IMG/VR virus record: IMGVR_UViG_3300023244_000002
Location: 1 to 63,847 of that record
Origin: a virus
Strand: one strand, 5' to 3'
DNA: 63,847 nucleotides
Position 1 is the first letter of the stretch. The number at the start of each line of letters is the position of its first letter. Shown in pieces: positions 6,536 to 16,263 of the stretch. Below the pieces are notes generated by a model. The model saw nothing but the letters and a program-made list of their open reading frames with translations, did not search any database and was not told the origin of the DNA. Both the position numbers and the translations under genes were made by a program.

Positions 6536-6549
6536 TTTACAATTCCTTT

Positions 6550-6633
6550 TTATTTGTTCAGCAATCGTTCCATGCTAGGTTTTTTTCTTTGTTCAAAATT
6601 TCCTTCAAATGTAGCATTTTTTTGATGTAACAT
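6550..6633 (-). CDS. Possible micro-ORF, 27 aa
   Basis: A 27-codon frame begins MLHQKNATFEGNFEQRKKP and has protein-like composition, but no ribosome site. It could be a small peptide or a leader upstream of the 6535 gene. Support is weak. Confidence 0.25.
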   Translation of the reverse strand: MLHQKNATFEGNFEQRKKPSMERLLNK

Positions 6634-6634
6634 T

Positions 6635-6666
6635 TTTGAGGGTAAAAATGCTGTTTTACCCTCAAA
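6635..6666. repeat. Perfect 13-bp inverted repeat
   Basis: TTTGAGGGTAAAA (6635-6647) and its exact complement (6654-6666) flank a six-base loop. No T-run follows on either strand, so it is not a classic terminator. It could be an operator or an RNA hairpin in the leader of the 6535 gene. Confidence 0.6.
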
Positions 6667-6680
6667 TCAGCGATTTCCGC

Positions 6681-6945
6681 GTAACGCGTAACGGTTTAGC
6701 AAAACTGCATTTTCTTTTGGTATCAAACACTTATGTAAATTTCCTAAACCGTTATACCGTTACAATCCCGCACGAAATAACCGTTTTTTCATAAATATTG
6801 AACTTGAAAAAGGTGTTTTTAAGGGTAAGGATATATGGAAAAATAGTTTGTTCGTGCGGAAACGTAATGCTGTAACGGTTTAGCAAAATCAAAAAAACTA
6901 TTGATTTTATTGAAAACGGAAAAAAATAAACCGTTATACCGTTAC
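6681..6945. repeat. Cluster of TAACGGT-type sites, possible operator or iteron array
   Basis: The 19-mer TAAACCGTTATACCGTTAC occurs at 6745-6763 and 6927-6945. A variant, GTAACGGTTTAGCAAAA, occurs at 6688-6704 and 6872-6888, and half-sites lie near 6681 and 6777. The 19-mer is two direct TAACGGT units eight bases apart. CCGCACGAA near 6767 is inverted at about 6851. The same 19-mer recurs inverted at 13820-13838, beside the helicase promoter. The 6540-6975 block is otherwise non-coding. It could be an origin or a repressor-binding region. Confidence 0.7.
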
Positions 6946-6974
6946 GCACCCCCAAAAATCTATGCTGAACGCTT

Positions 6975-9620
6975 TTAACCCTCAATTAACTCCTTTGAAA
7001 CACTCTCATCATCCTCTACAGCTTCTACACTCTCACCCTCATTGTCGATCAATCCTTCAGGAGCATCTGCAACTTCTGGATTTATTATTGAACCAGTTAT
7101 TGCATTATAAAATGTATCTTTATCACAAGGAAACTTACTATATATATCTTCTATCTTAGGTAGAAATCCTAATGTAGAACTTGACCACTCTAATCCTCGT
7201 CTAGATATTCTAAATTGTGAAGCTTTACCTCTACCGCCTGCACCTTTTTCAGAATACTCAATAAGATTTGCCCTCATTAAAACATACATCCATTTCTTAA
7301 CCTTATCTACTTTCCAATCCATATATTCAGCAATATCTTTATATTTAAAAATAAACTCATTCTCATAACTTTCATCTTCTTCTGGCTTCCAATTATCACT
7401 CATTGTTTTAATTGCTTTCCAAAGCTGTTCTGCTGATGGGCCTATTTCATATATAGTATATGTCAATATAGATTCCGCTACTGTTTTAGCTACAAAATAA
7501 TCTGCTAATGTAGAGATTAAATGTATTGTTCCGTCAGGTTGCTTTTTTTGTTCTCTATGGAATTGGTGTAGTATTGTCACTATTTCAATTAGCACTCTAA
7601 ATCTTTCCCTATCTCTTCTTATTCTTACAGGTTTATCAGGGAACACAGAAAATACCTCTTTTGCGTATGGAATAATTATCTTGAAATCTGGATTAAGTAA
7701 ACGTTGTATATTTTTCCAGAGATTTAATTCTTTTTCATCTAACTTAAATGTTTCTCCCATTGCCTTACGAATAGTTATATCACCTATTGCTTGTGTTAAC
7801 TGTGGAGAATCATCACTAAATACTGAAAAGTTTCTAGTTTCATTTTCATCAAACATCTGCGCTTTGGTAGTTGTGATAAGAAATCCTACAGGTCCTTTAA
7901 CTTTCTTTGTTATAGTTTCCATTTGACCAGAGTGTTGATCCTTAACAGGCATCATTAAAATTAAATCGCCTTCTGATTGCGCGGTTCTTATAGAATAATC
8001 AGCCGCTTCTGAGCCGGGAAGCTCATTGATAAATATAATTCTGTTTTGCATTCCGTCCTCGGGTAAATGGAAGAAAGCATTTTGCGTTGCTCTCGTAATG
8101 AAATGATAACCTTCTTCCGGTATAAGCCTTTGGATACATTGACACGAAAAAGATTTACCACTAGAAGCTTCACCTTTGACTGTTATTGATAATGGCTCTT
8201 TTGTTATTCTTGACGTATAACATAAATAAACCATTAGCCTCATTATTTCTTCTCCAACAACACCCATTTTATTTGTTAAAGAAATGACATTATATAAAAC
8301 ATTTTTATTCTCCGTAAGGAATTTTATTGCTTCATTCTTTTCACCTTCTGTCATTATATATAATTGCTTAGGTGCAGTTAATTTATCATGCTCTTCTTTT
8401 TCTAATTGCTTTTTAACTAGATCCTCTAATTTAATTAAATCAGAATCTATCTCGTCCTCTTGTGATGCTTTAACAAATCTTGCTCTATTAGATGCCATAC
8501 TTAATTTAATAGAATCTTTAAATAATATTTTTCCTGATTTGCTTAATGTAAGAGATACTTTAAAATTTCCAGATTTCATAAATTCAAAGTTAGCTAATCT
8601 AAACTCATAATCTTTCTTTCTAAATACCATTATTTCTTTATCTCTAAAAATCATAGTAATGATGCCTTTATCTATTTGCTCTTTTCTCATCTGTGAGCTT
8701 GTTAGAGGGCAAGTTGTTTTATCACAATAATTTTGGATTATCGCATCATCACAACCATAGCTTTTATAACCACCTTTAAAGACAGAGTTTATTATTTTAA
8801 TTAGAACTCTTTCAGGTAGAGGTGGTGTATTTCTCTCGTTCCAGCCTGCTATTAGAGTTTGAATATCATTCTCTGACATTCCTTTTTCTTTATAATTTAT
8901 AGCTAATCTGAAACAGGCATTATCTCGATGACCTTTAGAAACTCCTTCTTTTATTTTATGTATGCAAGGTAACTCTTTGCTTGGGATATAATGTTTATTA
9001 TCGGATCCTGTATCTAGCATTGTTACTTTTTTTCTTCCTAAACTTTTTCCAATAATAGTTATTTTTATTAGAGTAATATCTGTTTTTTTAATTTTAGAAA
9101 GGTCTTTAATATTATTTATAAATGTTTTATTATCATCATCTACAAAAATTGTTCTATCATTCCCGGCATCTCCACCGAACAAAGGGAGGTTAATGTAGTT
9201 TCCAAAAGGATGAGCTTCATTAACGCTGTCTTGCTTAGGAAAGATTTCGCAGATAATACCCATCTCACTCAATATATTTTCAAAAACTAATCTTGGCTTT
9301 ATAGCTTCAATTTTTTCATTGAAGAAACACCAGATATGAAATCCTTTACTCTTACTTCTTTCAATATAAATATTTAATCTTAACTCTTCTAATTTTTGTT
9401 TTATTGCTAATGCTTTCTCGAAGTTATTCTCATCTAAATCTACTGCAATCCAATTAACAAACTCTTTATTGTAAATAGGATATATACCCATTCTTTGCAT
9501 TCCGTCTATATGTTTTTTATATATTTCTAATGTTAGCTTTTCTTTTAGACAGAAATTATTTCGCCCATAGGCATCATCTCTTCCGGAAAAGAGTTCAGAA
9601 AATTGTTTAATGTCATTCAT
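6975..9620 (-). CDS. AEP primase - SF3-like helicase fusion
   Basis: The 881-residue replication protein starts with an archaeo-eukaryotic primase domain of the type seen in TOTE-like systems: VDLDE with D61 and D63, then SKGFHIW with H95. A Cys-containing PriCT-like linker follows (C219, C236, C290, C299, C304). The C-terminal half is a P-loop ATPase with Walker A GEASSGKS (483-490), Walker B IIFINE (528-533) and ITTT as a likely sensor, with a winged-helix-like end. It should prime and unwind phage DNA. A TTAGGAGATAAA site precedes the ATG. Confidence 0.9.
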   Translation of the reverse strand: MNDIKQFSELFSGRDDAYGRNNFCLKEKLTLEIYKKHIDGMQRMGIYPIYNKEFVNWIAVDLDENNFEKALAIKQKLEELRLNIYIERSKSKGFHIWCFFNEKIEAIKPRLVFENILSEMGIICEIFPKQDSVNEAHPFGNYINLPLFGGDAGNDRTIFVDDDNKTFINNIKDLSKIKKTDITLIKITIIGKSLGRKKVTMLDTGSDNKHYIPSKELPCIHKIKEGVSKGHRDNACFRLAINYKEKGMSENDIQTLIAGWNERNTPPLPERVLIKIINSVFKGGYKSYGCDDAIIQNYCDKTTCPLTSSQMRKEQIDKGIITMIFRDKEIMVFRKKDYEFRLANFEFMKSGNFKVSLTLSKSGKILFKDSIKLSMASNRARFVKASQEDEIDSDLIKLEDLVKKQLEKEEHDKLTAPKQLYIMTEGEKNEAIKFLTENKNVLYNVISLTNKMGVVGEEIMRLMVYLCYTSRITKEPLSITVKGEASSGKSFSCQCIQRLIPEEGYHFITRATQNAFFHLPEDGMQNRIIFINELPGSEAADYSIRTAQSEGDLILMMPVKDQHSGQMETITKKVKGPVGFLITTTKAQMFDENETRNFSVFSDDSPQLTQAIGDITIRKAMGETFKLDEKELNLWKNIQRLLNPDFKIIIPYAKEVFSVFPDKPVRIRRDRERFRVLIEIVTILHQFHREQKKQPDGTIHLISTLADYFVAKTVAESILTYTIYEIGPSAEQLWKAIKTMSDNWKPEEDESYENEFIFKYKDIAEYMDWKVDKVKKWMYVLMRANLIEYSEKGAGGRGKASQFRISRRGLEWSSSTLGFLPKIEDIYSKFPCDKDTFYNAITGSIINPEVADAPEGLIDNEGESVEAVEDDESVSKELIEG

Positions 9621-9693: not shown

Positions 9694-10440
9694 TTACTCA
9701 GAGTTTTCTTCTGTCAACTCAACGTCAATGTCAGCTTTACGTCTATAAAGCGAATCAAACATCTTTTTTGCAGTATCATATTCTTCGTTTGTGCATCTCC
9801 TAACGAATTTAATAATAGGTACTGCATAAGTTCCTTTTGTTCCTTTTTCAATCTTTGAGGAAAGATTATATACTCTAGCAAACATATCTTCGCCAGAATA
9901 CCTCGCCATTGAAAGGAATGTTTTCGCTGTTTTAATTGCTGTTTTCATCATCGACAATGAGAGTGGGAATTGTTGTAGTCTATCAACAAGTATGCAAGGA
10001 AAATTGTAAACCTGCGAGAATTTAGGTGGCTCTTTTCCTTCCCAAGCTGAACCGGGAACCTCTTCAACAGGTTTATCTAAAAATTGCTCATATTCCTCAA
10101 TAGCCATTGTTACTTTAATGTTATCTCTAGACATCATTACAAGCCCGCGCTCAAGATCAAATTGAGCTCTGGTTTTAAACATGAACAAAGGAATTATTTC
10201 TAATTCATCACCAAACACTTCATCAGTTAAGTTATTAAATAACTCTCCCATTTTTGCGTTTCCATCAACGCATACTTGAGATAATCCTTGAGCAAGCCCA
10301 AGCCGAGCTATTTTAATATCTCCTTCGTCCATTGCCTCAAAACCTGCCGGAACGTGTGATTTGTCTGTTCCTCCTGATACTCTTAATTCGAGATTCTGTG
10401 ATTCGTTAGATGTTACTTCATTCTTTTTTTCTTCACTCAT
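9694..10440 (-). CDS. Phage replication-region protein of unknown function
   Basis: The 248-residue product has a polar N-terminus, a conserved-looking core (GDIKIARLGLAQGLS, then FPLSLSMMKTAIKTAKTFL) and an acidic C-terminus (VELTEENSE). An acidic tail and the place directly upstream of the primase recall single-strand-binding or replication accessory proteins, but I see no OB-fold signature. Strong AAGGAGGGTAAG site. Confidence 0.75.
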   Translation of the reverse strand: MSEEKKNEVTSNESQNLELRVSGGTDKSHVPAGFEAMDEGDIKIARLGLAQGLSQVCVDGNAKMGELFNNLTDEVFGDELEIIPLFMFKTRAQFDLERGLVMMSRDNIKVTMAIEEYEQFLDKPVEEVPGSAWEGKEPPKFSQVYNFPCILVDRLQQFPLSLSMMKTAIKTAKTFLSMARYSGEDMFARVYNLSSKIEKGTKGTYAVPIIKFVRRCTNEEYDTAKKMFDSLYRRKADIDVELTEENSE

Positions 10441-11925: not shown

Positions 11926-12084
11926 TTACCTCCTTTTTTTACTTGCTATAAACTTTTTCATTGCTTCTCTAAAGTAAGGCAAAAAAGAATTATAACAATC
12001 ATTGCACAAACCATGACTATTTAATGGAGTTGGTAAATTTTCCTCTTTCTTTCCACATTTACGGCACTTAGTTCCTTTATTCAT
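11926..12084 (-). CDS. Small zinc-ribbon protein
   Basis: I place the start at the ATG that overlaps the helicase TAA (TAATG), with AAAGGGG upstream. A longer frame from 12111 is possible. The 52-residue product has CRKCGK and CNDC, a four-Cys zinc ribbon with a basic end (KKFIASKKRR). Coupled to the helicase. Confidence 0.7.
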   Translation of the reverse strand: MNKGTKCRKCGKKEENLPTPLNSHGLCNDCYNSFLPYFREAMKKFIASKKRR

Positions 12085-13691
12085 TATTGCCCCTTTAACA
12101 TGTTTAAACATGATTCTGATAGGTTCTGTTTGGTTTTTAATGCCTTATATATCACTTCATCAATAGAGTTCTTAGCAAGTAGTTGAAAGTATGTAGTATT
12201 ATATTTTTGACCAATCCTGTGGCATCTGTCGCACGCTTGGACGTATTCCTCATAACTATAAGATAACGAATACCAAATAGAATAACTACACTGTTGGAGA
12301 TTTAATCCATGCCCTCCTGATTTCGGATGAGCTATTAAGAAACGTTTTTTCCCTGCTTGAAAGTCTTGTATATTTTTAATCTTTTCTTTCTGAGGTATTG
12401 TGCCGTTTAATAATACAGCATCATCTCCTAATAAGAGCTTTAGCTCTGCTGATTCCCAATGGTATTGTATCCATATTATTATTTGTTTATTTTTAGGTAT
12501 TGAGTTTATTGTTTCAGTTAATACTTTAATTTTTGAATCACTTACTTTAACAGGAATCCCATTTATATTTATTACGAATCCTCCTGTTATCTCTCTAAGC
12601 TTACATATCTTTGATAATTCATTAGCGGCTAGAGTAATACTATCTTTAAATTCTAAAACATTCTCTTTCTTCATTGATTCATATGCTTTCTCTTGCACCT
12701 TATCCATATAGACTAATCTAGTTTCAAATATTTGTTCTGGTAAATCTAATGCATCTTCTTTTTGTAAAGAGAATGCTTGTCTTGATATTCTATCCATTAT
12801 TGCCTCTTTGGCTCCACTCATTGTGCGGTAAAGATAACCTCCGTAACCTGTTGAGTAAAAGAAACTATTTCTATATTTATAAAAATTATCACTAAGTAGC
12901 TCATCATTAACAAACGCCATTTGACCCCAATACTCTAATAAATTATTAGGCGCTGGAATACCGCTTAAACATATTCTATGTTTTATTTTATTTTTATAGT
13001 CAAGAATAGTTTTAGTTATCGCTGATGAGTGTGATTTTATTTTAGCGCTCTCATCTATTATTAAACAACTTATTTTGTTCTCAATAGACGGTTTCTTTAT
13101 CTTTGATAGTTTTTTAAACCCTTCAAAATTTATAATATATACATCGTAATCATTGTTCCACTCTTTCAAATTATTCCATAGCACAATTGACCTGAGATTA
13201 CTCCATTTATTTATTTCTGCTACCCATACACTCTCTAATGTAGATAAAGGCGCAATGATGATTGCCGGTAACTTCCAATGCTCTATTAGTTTTATAGCTG
13301 TTAATGTTTTGCCGAGCCCCGGATCCATAAACAAAGCGTAGCTATCAAACATAGCAGCAAGAGCAATAGCTTTCTTTTGATGCTGATAGCACATTGATAA
13401 ATCAGTTTTACCTAACTTATCAATCAAGCAATCATTTATTTTTATTTTATTAGCGAGGTTAACTTTTTCGTGGTACTTTTGTTTCTCGTTGCGTAATTGT
13501 TGGTATATAATCTTAGTATCTAAATCGTATTGAATATTTAGATGCTCTATTATATCTATTAATTTTCTTTTTGGGAATACCCACGAAGAGGTTGCTTTAT
13601 GAAACTTATATTCTCCGATTGATTTGACTAATTCTTTTTCTTCAAACAGGCATTTTACGATTGCCGAATCATTATTTACAGATACAAACAT
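12084..13691 (-). CDS. SNF2-type SF2 DNA helicase
   Basis: The 535-residue protein has motif I DPGLGKT (123-129), a DESA box (213-216) in place of DEAH, LSGIPAPN as motif III, and QACDRCHRIGQ (485-495) as motif VI. The arrangement is that of phage SNF2/RapA-like helicases. The first 80 residues contain a HARP-like piece (HKATSSWVFPK). It follows the strong promoter and operators at 13708-13838 and is the first gene read from them. Likely role: replication, recombination or strand annealing. Confidence 0.93.
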   Translation of the reverse strand: MFVSVNNDSAIVKCLFEEKELVKSIGEYKFHKATSSWVFPKRKLIDIIEHLNIQYDLDTKIIYQQLRNEKQKYHEKVNLANKIKINDCLIDKLGKTDLSMCYQHQKKAIALAAMFDSYALFMDPGLGKTLTAIKLIEHWKLPAIIIAPLSTLESVWVAEINKWSNLRSIVLWNNLKEWNNDYDVYIINFEGFKKLSKIKKPSIENKISCLIIDESAKIKSHSSAITKTILDYKNKIKHRICLSGIPAPNNLLEYWGQMAFVNDELLSDNFYKYRNSFFYSTGYGGYLYRTMSGAKEAIMDRISRQAFSLQKEDALDLPEQIFETRLVYMDKVQEKAYESMKKENVLEFKDSITLAANELSKICKLREITGGFVININGIPVKVSDSKIKVLTETINSIPKNKQIIIWIQYHWESAELKLLLGDDAVLLNGTIPQKEKIKNIQDFQAGKKRFLIAHPKSGGHGLNLQQCSYSIWYSLSYSYEEYVQACDRCHRIGQKYNTTYFQLLAKNSIDEVIYKALKTKQNLSESCLNMLKGQ

Positions 13692-13707
13692 ATGAAAACT
13701 CCTTGTT

Positions 13708-13838
13708 TATACCGTTACGAGTATTGCGAATCAAAGCAAATGATTTTTAATAGAATGTTATTGAAAATCCATTATAACATTGCTTTTTTTCGTGTCAAGG
13801 GCTTTTTTTTACAATACTCGTAACGGTATAACGGTTTA
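13708..13838. promoter_or_regulatory. Operator pair: 19-bp inverted repeats around the helicase promoter
   Basis: TATACCGTTACGAGTATTG (13708-13726) is repeated exactly inverted at 13812-13830, one copy on each side of the promoter. The right copy extends into GTAACGGTATAACGGTTTA (13820-13838), the exact 19-mer found at 6745 and 6927. Two sites flanking one promoter suggest repression by looping or cooperative binding. The ribbon-helix-helix protein encoded next door is the obvious candidate binder. Confidence 0.75.
13771..13798 (-). promoter_or_regulatory. Consensus sigma70 promoter, leftward
   Basis: On the minus strand TTGACA (13798-13793) and TATAAT (13776-13771) are both perfect, 16 bases apart. 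Transcription would begin near 13764 and run into the helicase gene. It lies in the 150-base gap upstream of that gene, between the inverted operators. Confidence 0.88.
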
Positions 13839-13843
13839 GGTTA

Positions 13844-14029
13844 TTAACCAATATTCAATATTTCTGGATGTTCCATTGCGTTCCTAACAAGCAATCTTAT
13901 TAGCGCTGACCGCGATGCTATCTCGGGAATTTTCTTCTTTACTTTCCTATCAAGGAATGTAATTTCGCTTTGAGTAAATCCCACCAATATATTAATTTTG
14001 CGGTCTTTTGCGCTCACTTTTTTTGTCAT
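13844..14029 (-). CDS. Ribbon-helix-helix DNA-binding protein
   Basis: The 61-residue protein has a basic arm and a single strand (KINILVGFTQSE) followed by two helices with a typical turn (ASRSALIRLLVRNAM). This matches the CopG/Arc/MetJ fold. Such proteins bind tandem short repeats as dimers, often repressing their own operon. Its gene ends beside the TAACGGT operators at 13820-13838. I infer it is their binder. Confidence 0.8.
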   Translation of the reverse strand: MTKKVSAKDRKINILVGFTQSEITFLDRKVKKKIPEIASRSALIRLLVRNAMEHPEILNIG

Positions 14030-14042
14030 AATCCTCCTTTTA

Positions 14043-14261
14043 TTAATCTTTGTCTTGGTTTCCTAATAGTGTGAAAGTAATTCCATTCTTTCTCATTTCT
14101 ACGAGCAAAGTGTTAACTATTTTGTTCATAACATATTCATTAGCAAAAGGTCCGTGAGTATGTATATGCCCTGTCTTATTAATTACCACTACTAAATGCT
14201 CATCAGCATCATTTAACTCTGGAATGTCATTTTTGTTCTCGCAGTTAAATGGACATTTCAT
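14043..14261 (-). CDS. Hypothetical 72-aa protein with HTHGPF motif
   Basis: The protein starts MKCPFNCENKND and contains KTGHIHTHGPFANEYVM, a short histidine-rich beta-hairpin that may bind metal. It overlaps the RNase H gene. No family recognised. Confidence 0.65.
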   Translation of the reverse strand: MKCPFNCENKNDIPELNDADEHLVVVINKTGHIHTHGPFANEYVMNKIVNTLLVEMRKNGITFTLLGNQDKD

Positions 14262-14670: not shown

Positions 14671-16263
14671 TTAGCTCCCTTTTATCATTTCTTTTGGCAC
14701 TTTTGTTTTTGTAAGTCCTAACATTTCTTTAATAATTTCTCCCTTCTTTTCTTTCCAAGCTAAGCTACCTACTTTAAGTTTCAATTCTTTTGACAGTTTT
14801 TGCAAACCAGCTTTTGAGAATTTTTCGAGATATTCTTGAGTAATTCTGAATTTCTTACCGATATTAATACCGGCTTCTTCACCAAGATCCTCTAATTCTT
14901 TTGTTTCGTATTTACTCAATCTATCTAACACAACTTTTTCAACAATTTTAAGCAATTCATCGGTTTTTAATTTCAATAAGAAATTTTTAAACTCTTTTGT
15001 TCCTCTTACTTCGTAATTTGGTAAATCTTTCTTAAATCCAAGATAACCAGATATACTATTACTTGCTCCTGACTCCATATCAAAGAGTTGGTCAAGCAAT
15101 ATTCGATTAATTTGCACCACTTTAGCATTTACCTTGAGTTCAGATATAAAGAATTGTCGTTTAAATATATCCACTCTGTTTGCTTTCTGCCTCGCTTCAT
15201 ACTGAGCTGATGCATCTATTTCTTTATCACCTGTTTTGATTGACATTGCTTTACGCTCTACTGCTTTTGATTTCCGCATTGTTCGTTTGAAGCAATCTCT
15301 ATTCAAGCAAACTTGTTTCTCTCTACCGGTTGGTCCGATAATAATAGCAAATGTTGGACAAGTTTTTATGCACTCTGTTTTGAATTGCTCTGCCGGAAAT
15401 CCATTACCTTCATAACCAGAAAAATCAACGATGTCTTTTAATAACTCTGCATCCTTTGACCCATATTGAGGTTCGGTTTTCAATATTATTACTTTTTTGC
15501 CTTTTTTCTTGTACGCTTCCTCTTTTTCTTTTTGTACTTCTCTTATTTTCTTTGAGAAACAAAGATTATTCATACATTTTCCTTTAAGAGAATTACTCCT
15601 ATCAAACAAATCATCGTATGTACTGCCATTAAATGAGCAAGTTTTACAATCTTTCTTGTTAAAGCAAGCAGTTTCTAATCTTTGCGAGTAGTTTTCTAAT
15701 TCTCCTTCTGCTTTCACCGGAGAATATCGGTAGCGAATAATATCATTAGCTAAATGCTTTTGGTACTTAGCATCAGATAACCTTGTAAGCACGAATCCAT
15801 GATCTGCGGAGATTTTACCTTCTTTAATCATTTTCTTTACTTCATCACATAAATCAAGGAGTGACAATATTCTCTTTACACGATACTCAGATTTACCAGT
15901 GATTACCATAATGTCTTTTGCTTTGTAGTTTTCTCCTAATGATTTGTATGCCAATGCCTCATCAATAGGGTTTAAATCTTTGCGCTGTAAATTTGCAACT
16001 AATTGATACTCAACTCTATCATTTTTTTCAGCATCAACAGATAACACAGGAATCTCTGTAAGACCTGCGTACTTTGCCGCGCTGAATCTCCTATGACCAT
16101 CGAGTAAATCAATTTTACTTCCATTCTTCCTTACTAATAAAGGTTGAAGTATTCCTTTCTCTTTTAATGAGATAATCAAACTAGATAAACTTTCTTTCGT
16201 AATATCTTTTCTGATATTCTCTCCAACAATTATTTTGTCTATTGTTACCGTAGATAATTCCAT
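14671..16263 (-). CDS. ParB-like protein with a Cys-rich insert
   Basis: The 530-residue protein begins with a ParB/Spo0J N-terminal domain (DKIIVGENIRKDIT, then LLDGHRRFSAAKYAG at about 55-70, then LVANLQRKDLNPIDEALAY) and a KorB-like HTH (ITGKSEYRVKRILSLL). It continues with a Cys-rich region (CFNKKDCKTC, CMNNLC and later Cys pairs) and a long helical end. The extra length is like PRTRC-type ParB proteins. No ParA is encoded here, so plasmid-style partition is doubtful. Regulation or a nuclease function is possible. Confidence 0.88.
   Translation of the reverse strand: MELSTVTIDKIIVGENIRKDITKESLSSLIISLKEKGILQPLLVRKNGSKIDLLDGHRRFSAAKYAGLTEIPVLSVDAEKNDRVEYQLVANLQRKDLNPIDEALAYKSLGENYKAKDIMVITGKSEYRVKRILSLLDLCDEVKKMIKEGKISADHGFVLTRLSDAKYQKHLANDIIRYRYSPVKAEGELENYSQRLETACFNKKDCKTCSFNGSTYDDLFDRSNSLKGKCMNNLCFSKKIREVQKEKEEAYKKKGKKVIILKTEPQYGSKDAELLKDIVDFSGYEGNGFPAEQFKTECIKTCPTFAIIIGPTGREKQVCLNRDCFKRTMRKSKAVERKAMSIKTGDKEIDASAQYEARQKANRVDIFKRQFFISELKVNAKVVQINRILLDQLFDMESGASNSISGYLGFKKDLPNYEVRGTKEFKNFLLKLKTDELLKIVEKVVLDRLSKYETKELEDLGEEAGINIGKKFRITQEYLEKFSKAGLQKLSKELKLKVGSLAWKEKKGEIIKEMLGLTKTKVPKEMIKGS

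Follow-up and report, generated by a model that had tools for sequence, protein, structure and literature searches.

In iteron plasmids such as those of pPS10 RepA and F RepE, a sequence is common to the operator and the iterons. Rep dimers of both bind the inverted repeats of the operator and repress rep transcription (PMC4857107, PMC13028717). The Sulfolobus plasmid pRN1 encodes a repressor (orf56) and a primase-helicase with a C-terminal winged helix (orf904), and has its origin just downstream (PMC4234260, PMC3869888). Origin recognition by AEP primase-helicases has been attributed to stem-loops in pRN1 and in phage BIP-1 (PMC4234260), and satellite phage P4 alpha (ori/crr) is a primase-helicase initiator whose C-terminal winged helix binds repeats (PMC4234260). 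The replication-control module proposed below is a variation on these layouts. It was recognised by computational sequence analysis of the window, that is, the whole stretch of 63,847 nucleotides of an IMG/VR virus record (IMGVR_UViG_3300023244_000002; G000 below), which has a 127-bp terminal repeat, as expected of a circular assembly.

Scans with the helicase, the primase, the RHH protein and a 15-mer found the locus in 12 additional contigs of uncultured phages or MAGs (G001 = L014; G002 = L015; G003 = L016; G004 = L058; G005 = L064; G006 = L230; G007 = L234; G008 = L235; G009 = L238; G010 = L099, limited to primase and cluster; G011 = L178, contig C5 from a bacterial MAG; G012 = L098), and near-identical copies were also found. 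The primases of the first three aligned share 53-85% identity with that of the window, and the aligned helicases 47-68%. A class-wide genome search yielded, beyond G011, only distant helicases; a blastn search of annotated phages with the region gave no match; and an exact scan of viral contigs with the operator consensus TATACCGTTAYGAKTATT returned only near-copies of the window phage and three unrelated chance matches.

The helicase promoter and the RHH-like gene

On the minus strand, a -35 hexamer TTGACA (13793-13798) and a -10 hexamer TATAAT with an extended TG (13771-13776) are separated by a spacer of 16 nucleotides, forming the window's only 12/12 promoter on either strand (shuffles expect 0.26). 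This promoter lies between the downstream arm D, TTATACCGTTACGAGTATTG (13707-13726, plus strand), located 2 nt ahead of the ribosome-binding site of the helicase gene (AAGGAGT, 13698-13704, minus strand, identified by eye) in the 5' leader, and the upstream arm U (13812-13831, minus strand), an exact inverted copy of D. The original prediction of a perfect promoter between exact inverted 19-mers holds, the arms being in fact 20 bp long each; they form the sole inverted pair of at least 16 bp within 250 bp in the whole window, and such a pair occurred in 0 of 100 dinucleotide shuffles. The minus-strand order is the RHH-like gene, CTAAACCGTTATACCGTTACGAGTATTG, TTGACA-16-TATAAT, the inverted CAATACTCGTAACGGTATAA, the ribosome-binding site and the helicase start.

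As also predicted, one of these sites overlaps a word seen twice at 6.7-6.9 kb. Indeed, arm U extends into the full iteron word CTAAACCGTTATACCGTTAC (13819-13838, minus strand), which recurs exactly at 6744-6763 and matches over 19 nt at 6927-6945. The 15-nt core of this word has three exact matches, and five within three mismatches versus 0.39 expected; the word CCGTTATACCGTTAC is present in exactly three copies, two at 6.7-6.9 kb and one in the upstream arm. The likeness of the distant sites to the arms had to be corrected, however: it stands for the CCGTTA words, which both have in common, and fails for the GAGTATTG half of the arms, which the distant sites do not share.

Just upstream of the promoter, a small ORF encodes a 61-aa ribbon-helix-helix-like (RHH) protein, a predicted repressor (13844-14029, minus strand), and an RHH-like gene is located directly upstream of the helicase promoter in 12/12 lineages with the helicase locus. 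The original prediction of an adjacent RHH gene is thus confirmed for its position, while the class is only probable, since the family aligns weakly with CopG (hhalign, E 0.007, probability only 5.5%) and a Pfam search of the 61-aa ORF gave no match. One family member matched RHH_1 below threshold (E 0.024), and the RHH domain of NikR was among the best PDB sequence matches of the 61-aa protein, the match being weak. The monomer model has helices at 20-29 and 40-53 and lacks the strand, and a Foldseek search with it returned no RHH match. The RHH gene's own promoter is devoid of an operator copy. A 72-aa protein with an HTHGP-type motif and no family match is encoded at 14043-14261 (minus strand) of the window, and several relatives keep it upstream of their RHH gene.

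The promoter site is real and conserved. A dyad-like operator, ATACCGTTAYGA-TAT, was found at the helicase promoter in 8/12 lineages (G000, G001, G002, G003, G006, G009, G011 and G012), always just downstream of the RHH-like gene, and was absent there in G004, G005, G007 and G008; conservation of the sites, on which the original prediction had been staked, is thereby supported. In the helicase tree (midpoint root), the operator bearers are not one clade and comprise the deepest branch (G003, G009) and a core group. The operator flanks the promoter in G000, G002, G006, G011 and G012, lies between -35 and -10 in G009 and just after -10 in G003, and is upstream only in G001; such placements, on the core promoter or to either side of it, fit a repressor. 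The distance between the two promoter sites varies from about 85 to 109 bp; variation of this kind does not point to a fixed loop and gives no support to a U-D loop of fixed phase. In several lineages a GANTATT-like half, missing from the iterons, comes after the promoter core and gives a weak dyad, and in G002 both arms are altered together (ATACCGTTATAAGTATTA / ATACCGTTATAAGCATTA). Tandem cores spaced by 8 bp are also present at the promoters of G001, G002, G003, G006, G009 and G011; in G011 the promoter sequence GCGTTATACCGTTA matches the genome's own iteron CGCGTTATACCGTTA, and the G009 promoter also resembles its own iteron variant. Two side features of the relatives are a strong hairpin that G003 and G009 have between RHH gene and promoter (L089:1850-1930; L238:5337-5390) and an ORF of 190 aa, rich in lysine and tyrosine, that interrupts the helicase gene of G002 (L087:17200-17772, minus strand) and may be an inserted homing endonuclease.

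The helicase promoters of G004 and G005 carry TGACCGT sites and no CCGTTA, and the 10-mer forms of these sites occur nowhere else in the two genomes. Different promoter sites thus lie beside two divergent RHH proteins: the predicted strand-contact residues, placed by alignment to CopG, are M-S/N-F in G004/G005 versus N-L-G. The 10-mer common to the G004 and G005 promoters has a p of only about 0.05 in shuffles, and this covariation of site and contact residues is therefore suggestive only.

The probable helicase-to-primase operon and the iteron cluster

Leftward of the promoter, nine minus-strand genes (12084-13691, 11926, 11606, 11292, 11090, 10874, 10454, 9694 and 6975-9620) extend to the 6.7-6.9 kb cluster. 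They include an SNF2-type helicase as the first gene (12084-13691), a Pam3 gp34-like protein (9694-10440) and, as the last gene before the cluster, a predicted initiator (6975-9620) consisting of an AEP (TOTE-type) primase, PriCT and ATPase with a C-terminal winged-HTH-like region. The genes probably form a single operon from the promoter to the cluster, since they overlap or are separated by gaps of at most about 74 bp, unless transcription stops at a terminator-like hairpin that immediately precedes the primase gene (9679-9654, minus strand).

The primase-helicase shows AEP-TOTE and PriCT_1 domain matches. Its C-terminus forms an HTH plus wing in a low-confidence structure model, for which Foldseek gave many winged-HTH matches with probabilities of 0.9-1.0 and E-values of only about 0.05-0.16. 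A stand-alone copy of this C-terminal region lies beside the cluster in G006, G011 and G012, and ORFs of this kind were located between primase and iterons at L098:12584-13012 and L260:302-718. Among 50,697 annotated phage records, the best listed matches of the primase-helicase covered no more than half of the protein, at <30% identity, and no near relative was among the matches listed.

The cluster, within a predicted replication origin region (6536-6974), is composed of two units with a spacing of 182-184 bp, in each of which a short iteron CTAAACCGTTAC (6688-6699 and 6872-6883, minus strand) faces a long one, (C)TAAACCGTTATACCGTTAC (6744-6763 and 6927-6945, plus strand), the iteron word being CCGTTATA-CCGTTAC. 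The inverted iterons can fold, and they are repeats, not one 100-bp stem-loop. A CCGWTA cluster is found directly downstream of the primase-helicase gene in 10/11 genomes that contain both (G000, G002, G004, G005, G006, G007, G009, G010, G011 and G012), the clusters of G001 and G003 being outside the count because these contigs contain no primase. The clusters adjoining a primase comprise 2-14 cores versus 0.1-0.4 in shuffles, the low counts of G011 and G012 (3 and 2) being reached by single shuffles, and their position is kept even between primases only about 55% identical. The word itself has drifted: the cores of G007 are now CCGATA (AGCCGATATGCCGATACG), most of those of G006 are CCGATA, and the G011 iteron is CGCGTTATACCGTTA. 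Tandem 8-bp spacing of the cores is kept in most genomes (not G006 or G012), and G004 and G005 have textbook clusters with perfect iterons. The exception in position is the circular G008, with its cluster at 54.7-54.9 kb, away from the primase (L270:1150-1600). A second recurring element, about CAAYGASTTAYR, was observed alongside the iterons in the L064, L098, L178, L260 and L270 clusters.

Clustered repeats next to an initiator gene and conserved with it, as in an iteron-type origin, are thus present in all of these genomes except G008. The 6.7-6.9 kb cluster probably serves as the replication origin. Its binder is most likely the primase-helicase, given that the C-terminus of this protein models as HTH plus wing, draws winged-helix matches and recurs as a separate ORF.

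A proposed replication-control module and competing readings

We infer a module made up of an RHH repressor, the promoter of the nine-gene helicase-to-primase operon and an origin, and give this reading about an even chance (roughly 0.5). The strong promoter would drive the leftward operon from the SNF2 helicase to the AEP primase-helicase, the presumed initiator, and the 20-bp arms would be repressor operators that keep the operon low. The likeliest repressor is the small RHH protein, whose gene lies immediately upstream; it would act from sites beside the core promoter and, in relatives, on top of it. At the 6.7-6.9 kb origin, the primase-helicase would bind the inverted CCGTTA iterons through its C-terminal winged-helix region; once abundant, this initiator would probably also occupy the promoter, because the upstream arm overlaps a perfect iteron. 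The switch originally predicted to control the helicase operon is supported in outline by the conserved promoter site, the RHH-like gene upstream in 12/12 lineages and the repressor-like positions of the operator. An extended version, in which one word is read by two unrelated proteins (the RHH repressor at the promoter and the AEP primase-helicase at the origin) and initiator in excess of the filled origin iterons adds repression at arm U, so that origin number feeds back on the operon, is doubtful.

The primase-helicase could instead bind the inverted iteron-like arms itself and repress its own operon, as Rep dimers of pPS10 and F do by binding operator inverted repeats and repressing rep (PMC4857107, PMC13028717); promoter- and origin-bound initiator may then pair into a loop (handcuffing), with the RHH protein acting elsewhere or being secondary. 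This is possible, although somewhat unlikely. A perfect full iteron is present inside arm U, promoter sites and iterons share the tandem 8-bp-spaced CCGTTA form in most lineages, and initiator autoregulation stays a serious rival because the G009 and G011 promoter sites resemble their own iteron variants. Against it, a promoter site of this kind is missing from G004, G005, G007 and G008, all of which have iterons, the extra GANTATT-like right half of promoter sites in several lineages has no counterpart in the iterons, and the RHH gene would be left without a recognisable operator in most lineages. In G004 and G005, where perfect iterons are kept and the promoter sites differ, the cluster binder appears to be separate from the promoter binder, in keeping with the preferred module.

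The looping to the distant cluster originally suggested, with the RHH protein bound to both promoter arms and to the 6.7-6.9 kb sites across the intervening 7 kb, is very unlikely. A 20-mer is common to arm U and the cluster, but the GAGTATTG half of the operator is lacking at the cluster sites. Moreover, G004 and G005 keep the cluster word unchanged although their promoters carry TGACCGT and their RHH contact residues differ, and most iteron cores of G006/G007 are CCGATA, yet the main core of the G006 promoter stays CCGTTA. Still less credible is a ParB-like protein, encoded upstream (14671-16263, minus strand), that would bind the words as a parS-like centromere and silence the promoter. Its gene is nearby in G000, G002, G003, G006, G009 and G012; however, the operator is retained by G011, whose phage contig has no ParB gene, and by G001, which has just a C-terminal remnant of it, and G004, G005, G007 and G008 all have iterons and no ParB. 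A ParABS centromere with ParB as required ligand was rejected, as ParB is not present wherever the site is. Finally, the arms might act in RNA, with the ribosome-binding site of the helicase gene masked by a 20-bp hairpin in read-through transcripts. Although the strand is predicted to fold strongly (z -7 with DNA parameters) and both G002 arms changed jointly, this reading was rejected as the least probable of all, since the arms are incompletely complementary or reduced to one site in G012, G001, G003 and G009, about 1 kb separates site and helicase gene in G001 and G012, and an Rfam search gave no match.

Comparison with known replicons

If the proposed module is correct, it is a compact replicon of an as yet uncultured group of phages, with one word common to operator and iteron, and this short word may tie replication-gene expression to genome copying. 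It would bear on how AEP primase-helicases recognise origins; were the reading of one word by two proteins also true, the origin used by an AEP primase-helicase initiator would here be of the iteron type, whereas stem-loops had been proposed.

As in pRN1, a small CopG-type repressor is predicted upstream, followed by an AEP primase-helicase with a C-terminal winged helix (here in a low-confidence model) and a predicted origin directly downstream. Unlike in pRN1, the promoter is of the bacterial sigma-70 type, repressor and primase are separated by an SNF2 helicase gene and several others, and the predicted origin is of the iteron type, whereas that of pRN1 is a single stem-loop. With iteron plasmids the window shares inverted operator repeats at the promoter controlling the predicted initiator; it differs from them in that this initiator is an AEP primase-helicase and not a Rep-WH protein, that a separate RHH gene is present and that the origin is at the operon end. 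By description, P4 alpha is alike in initiator layout, but has a Toprim primase. The 61-aa protein resembles the RHH repressors CopG, NikR and MetJ in size and in its predicted, probable fold, and differs from them in its contact residues and operator.
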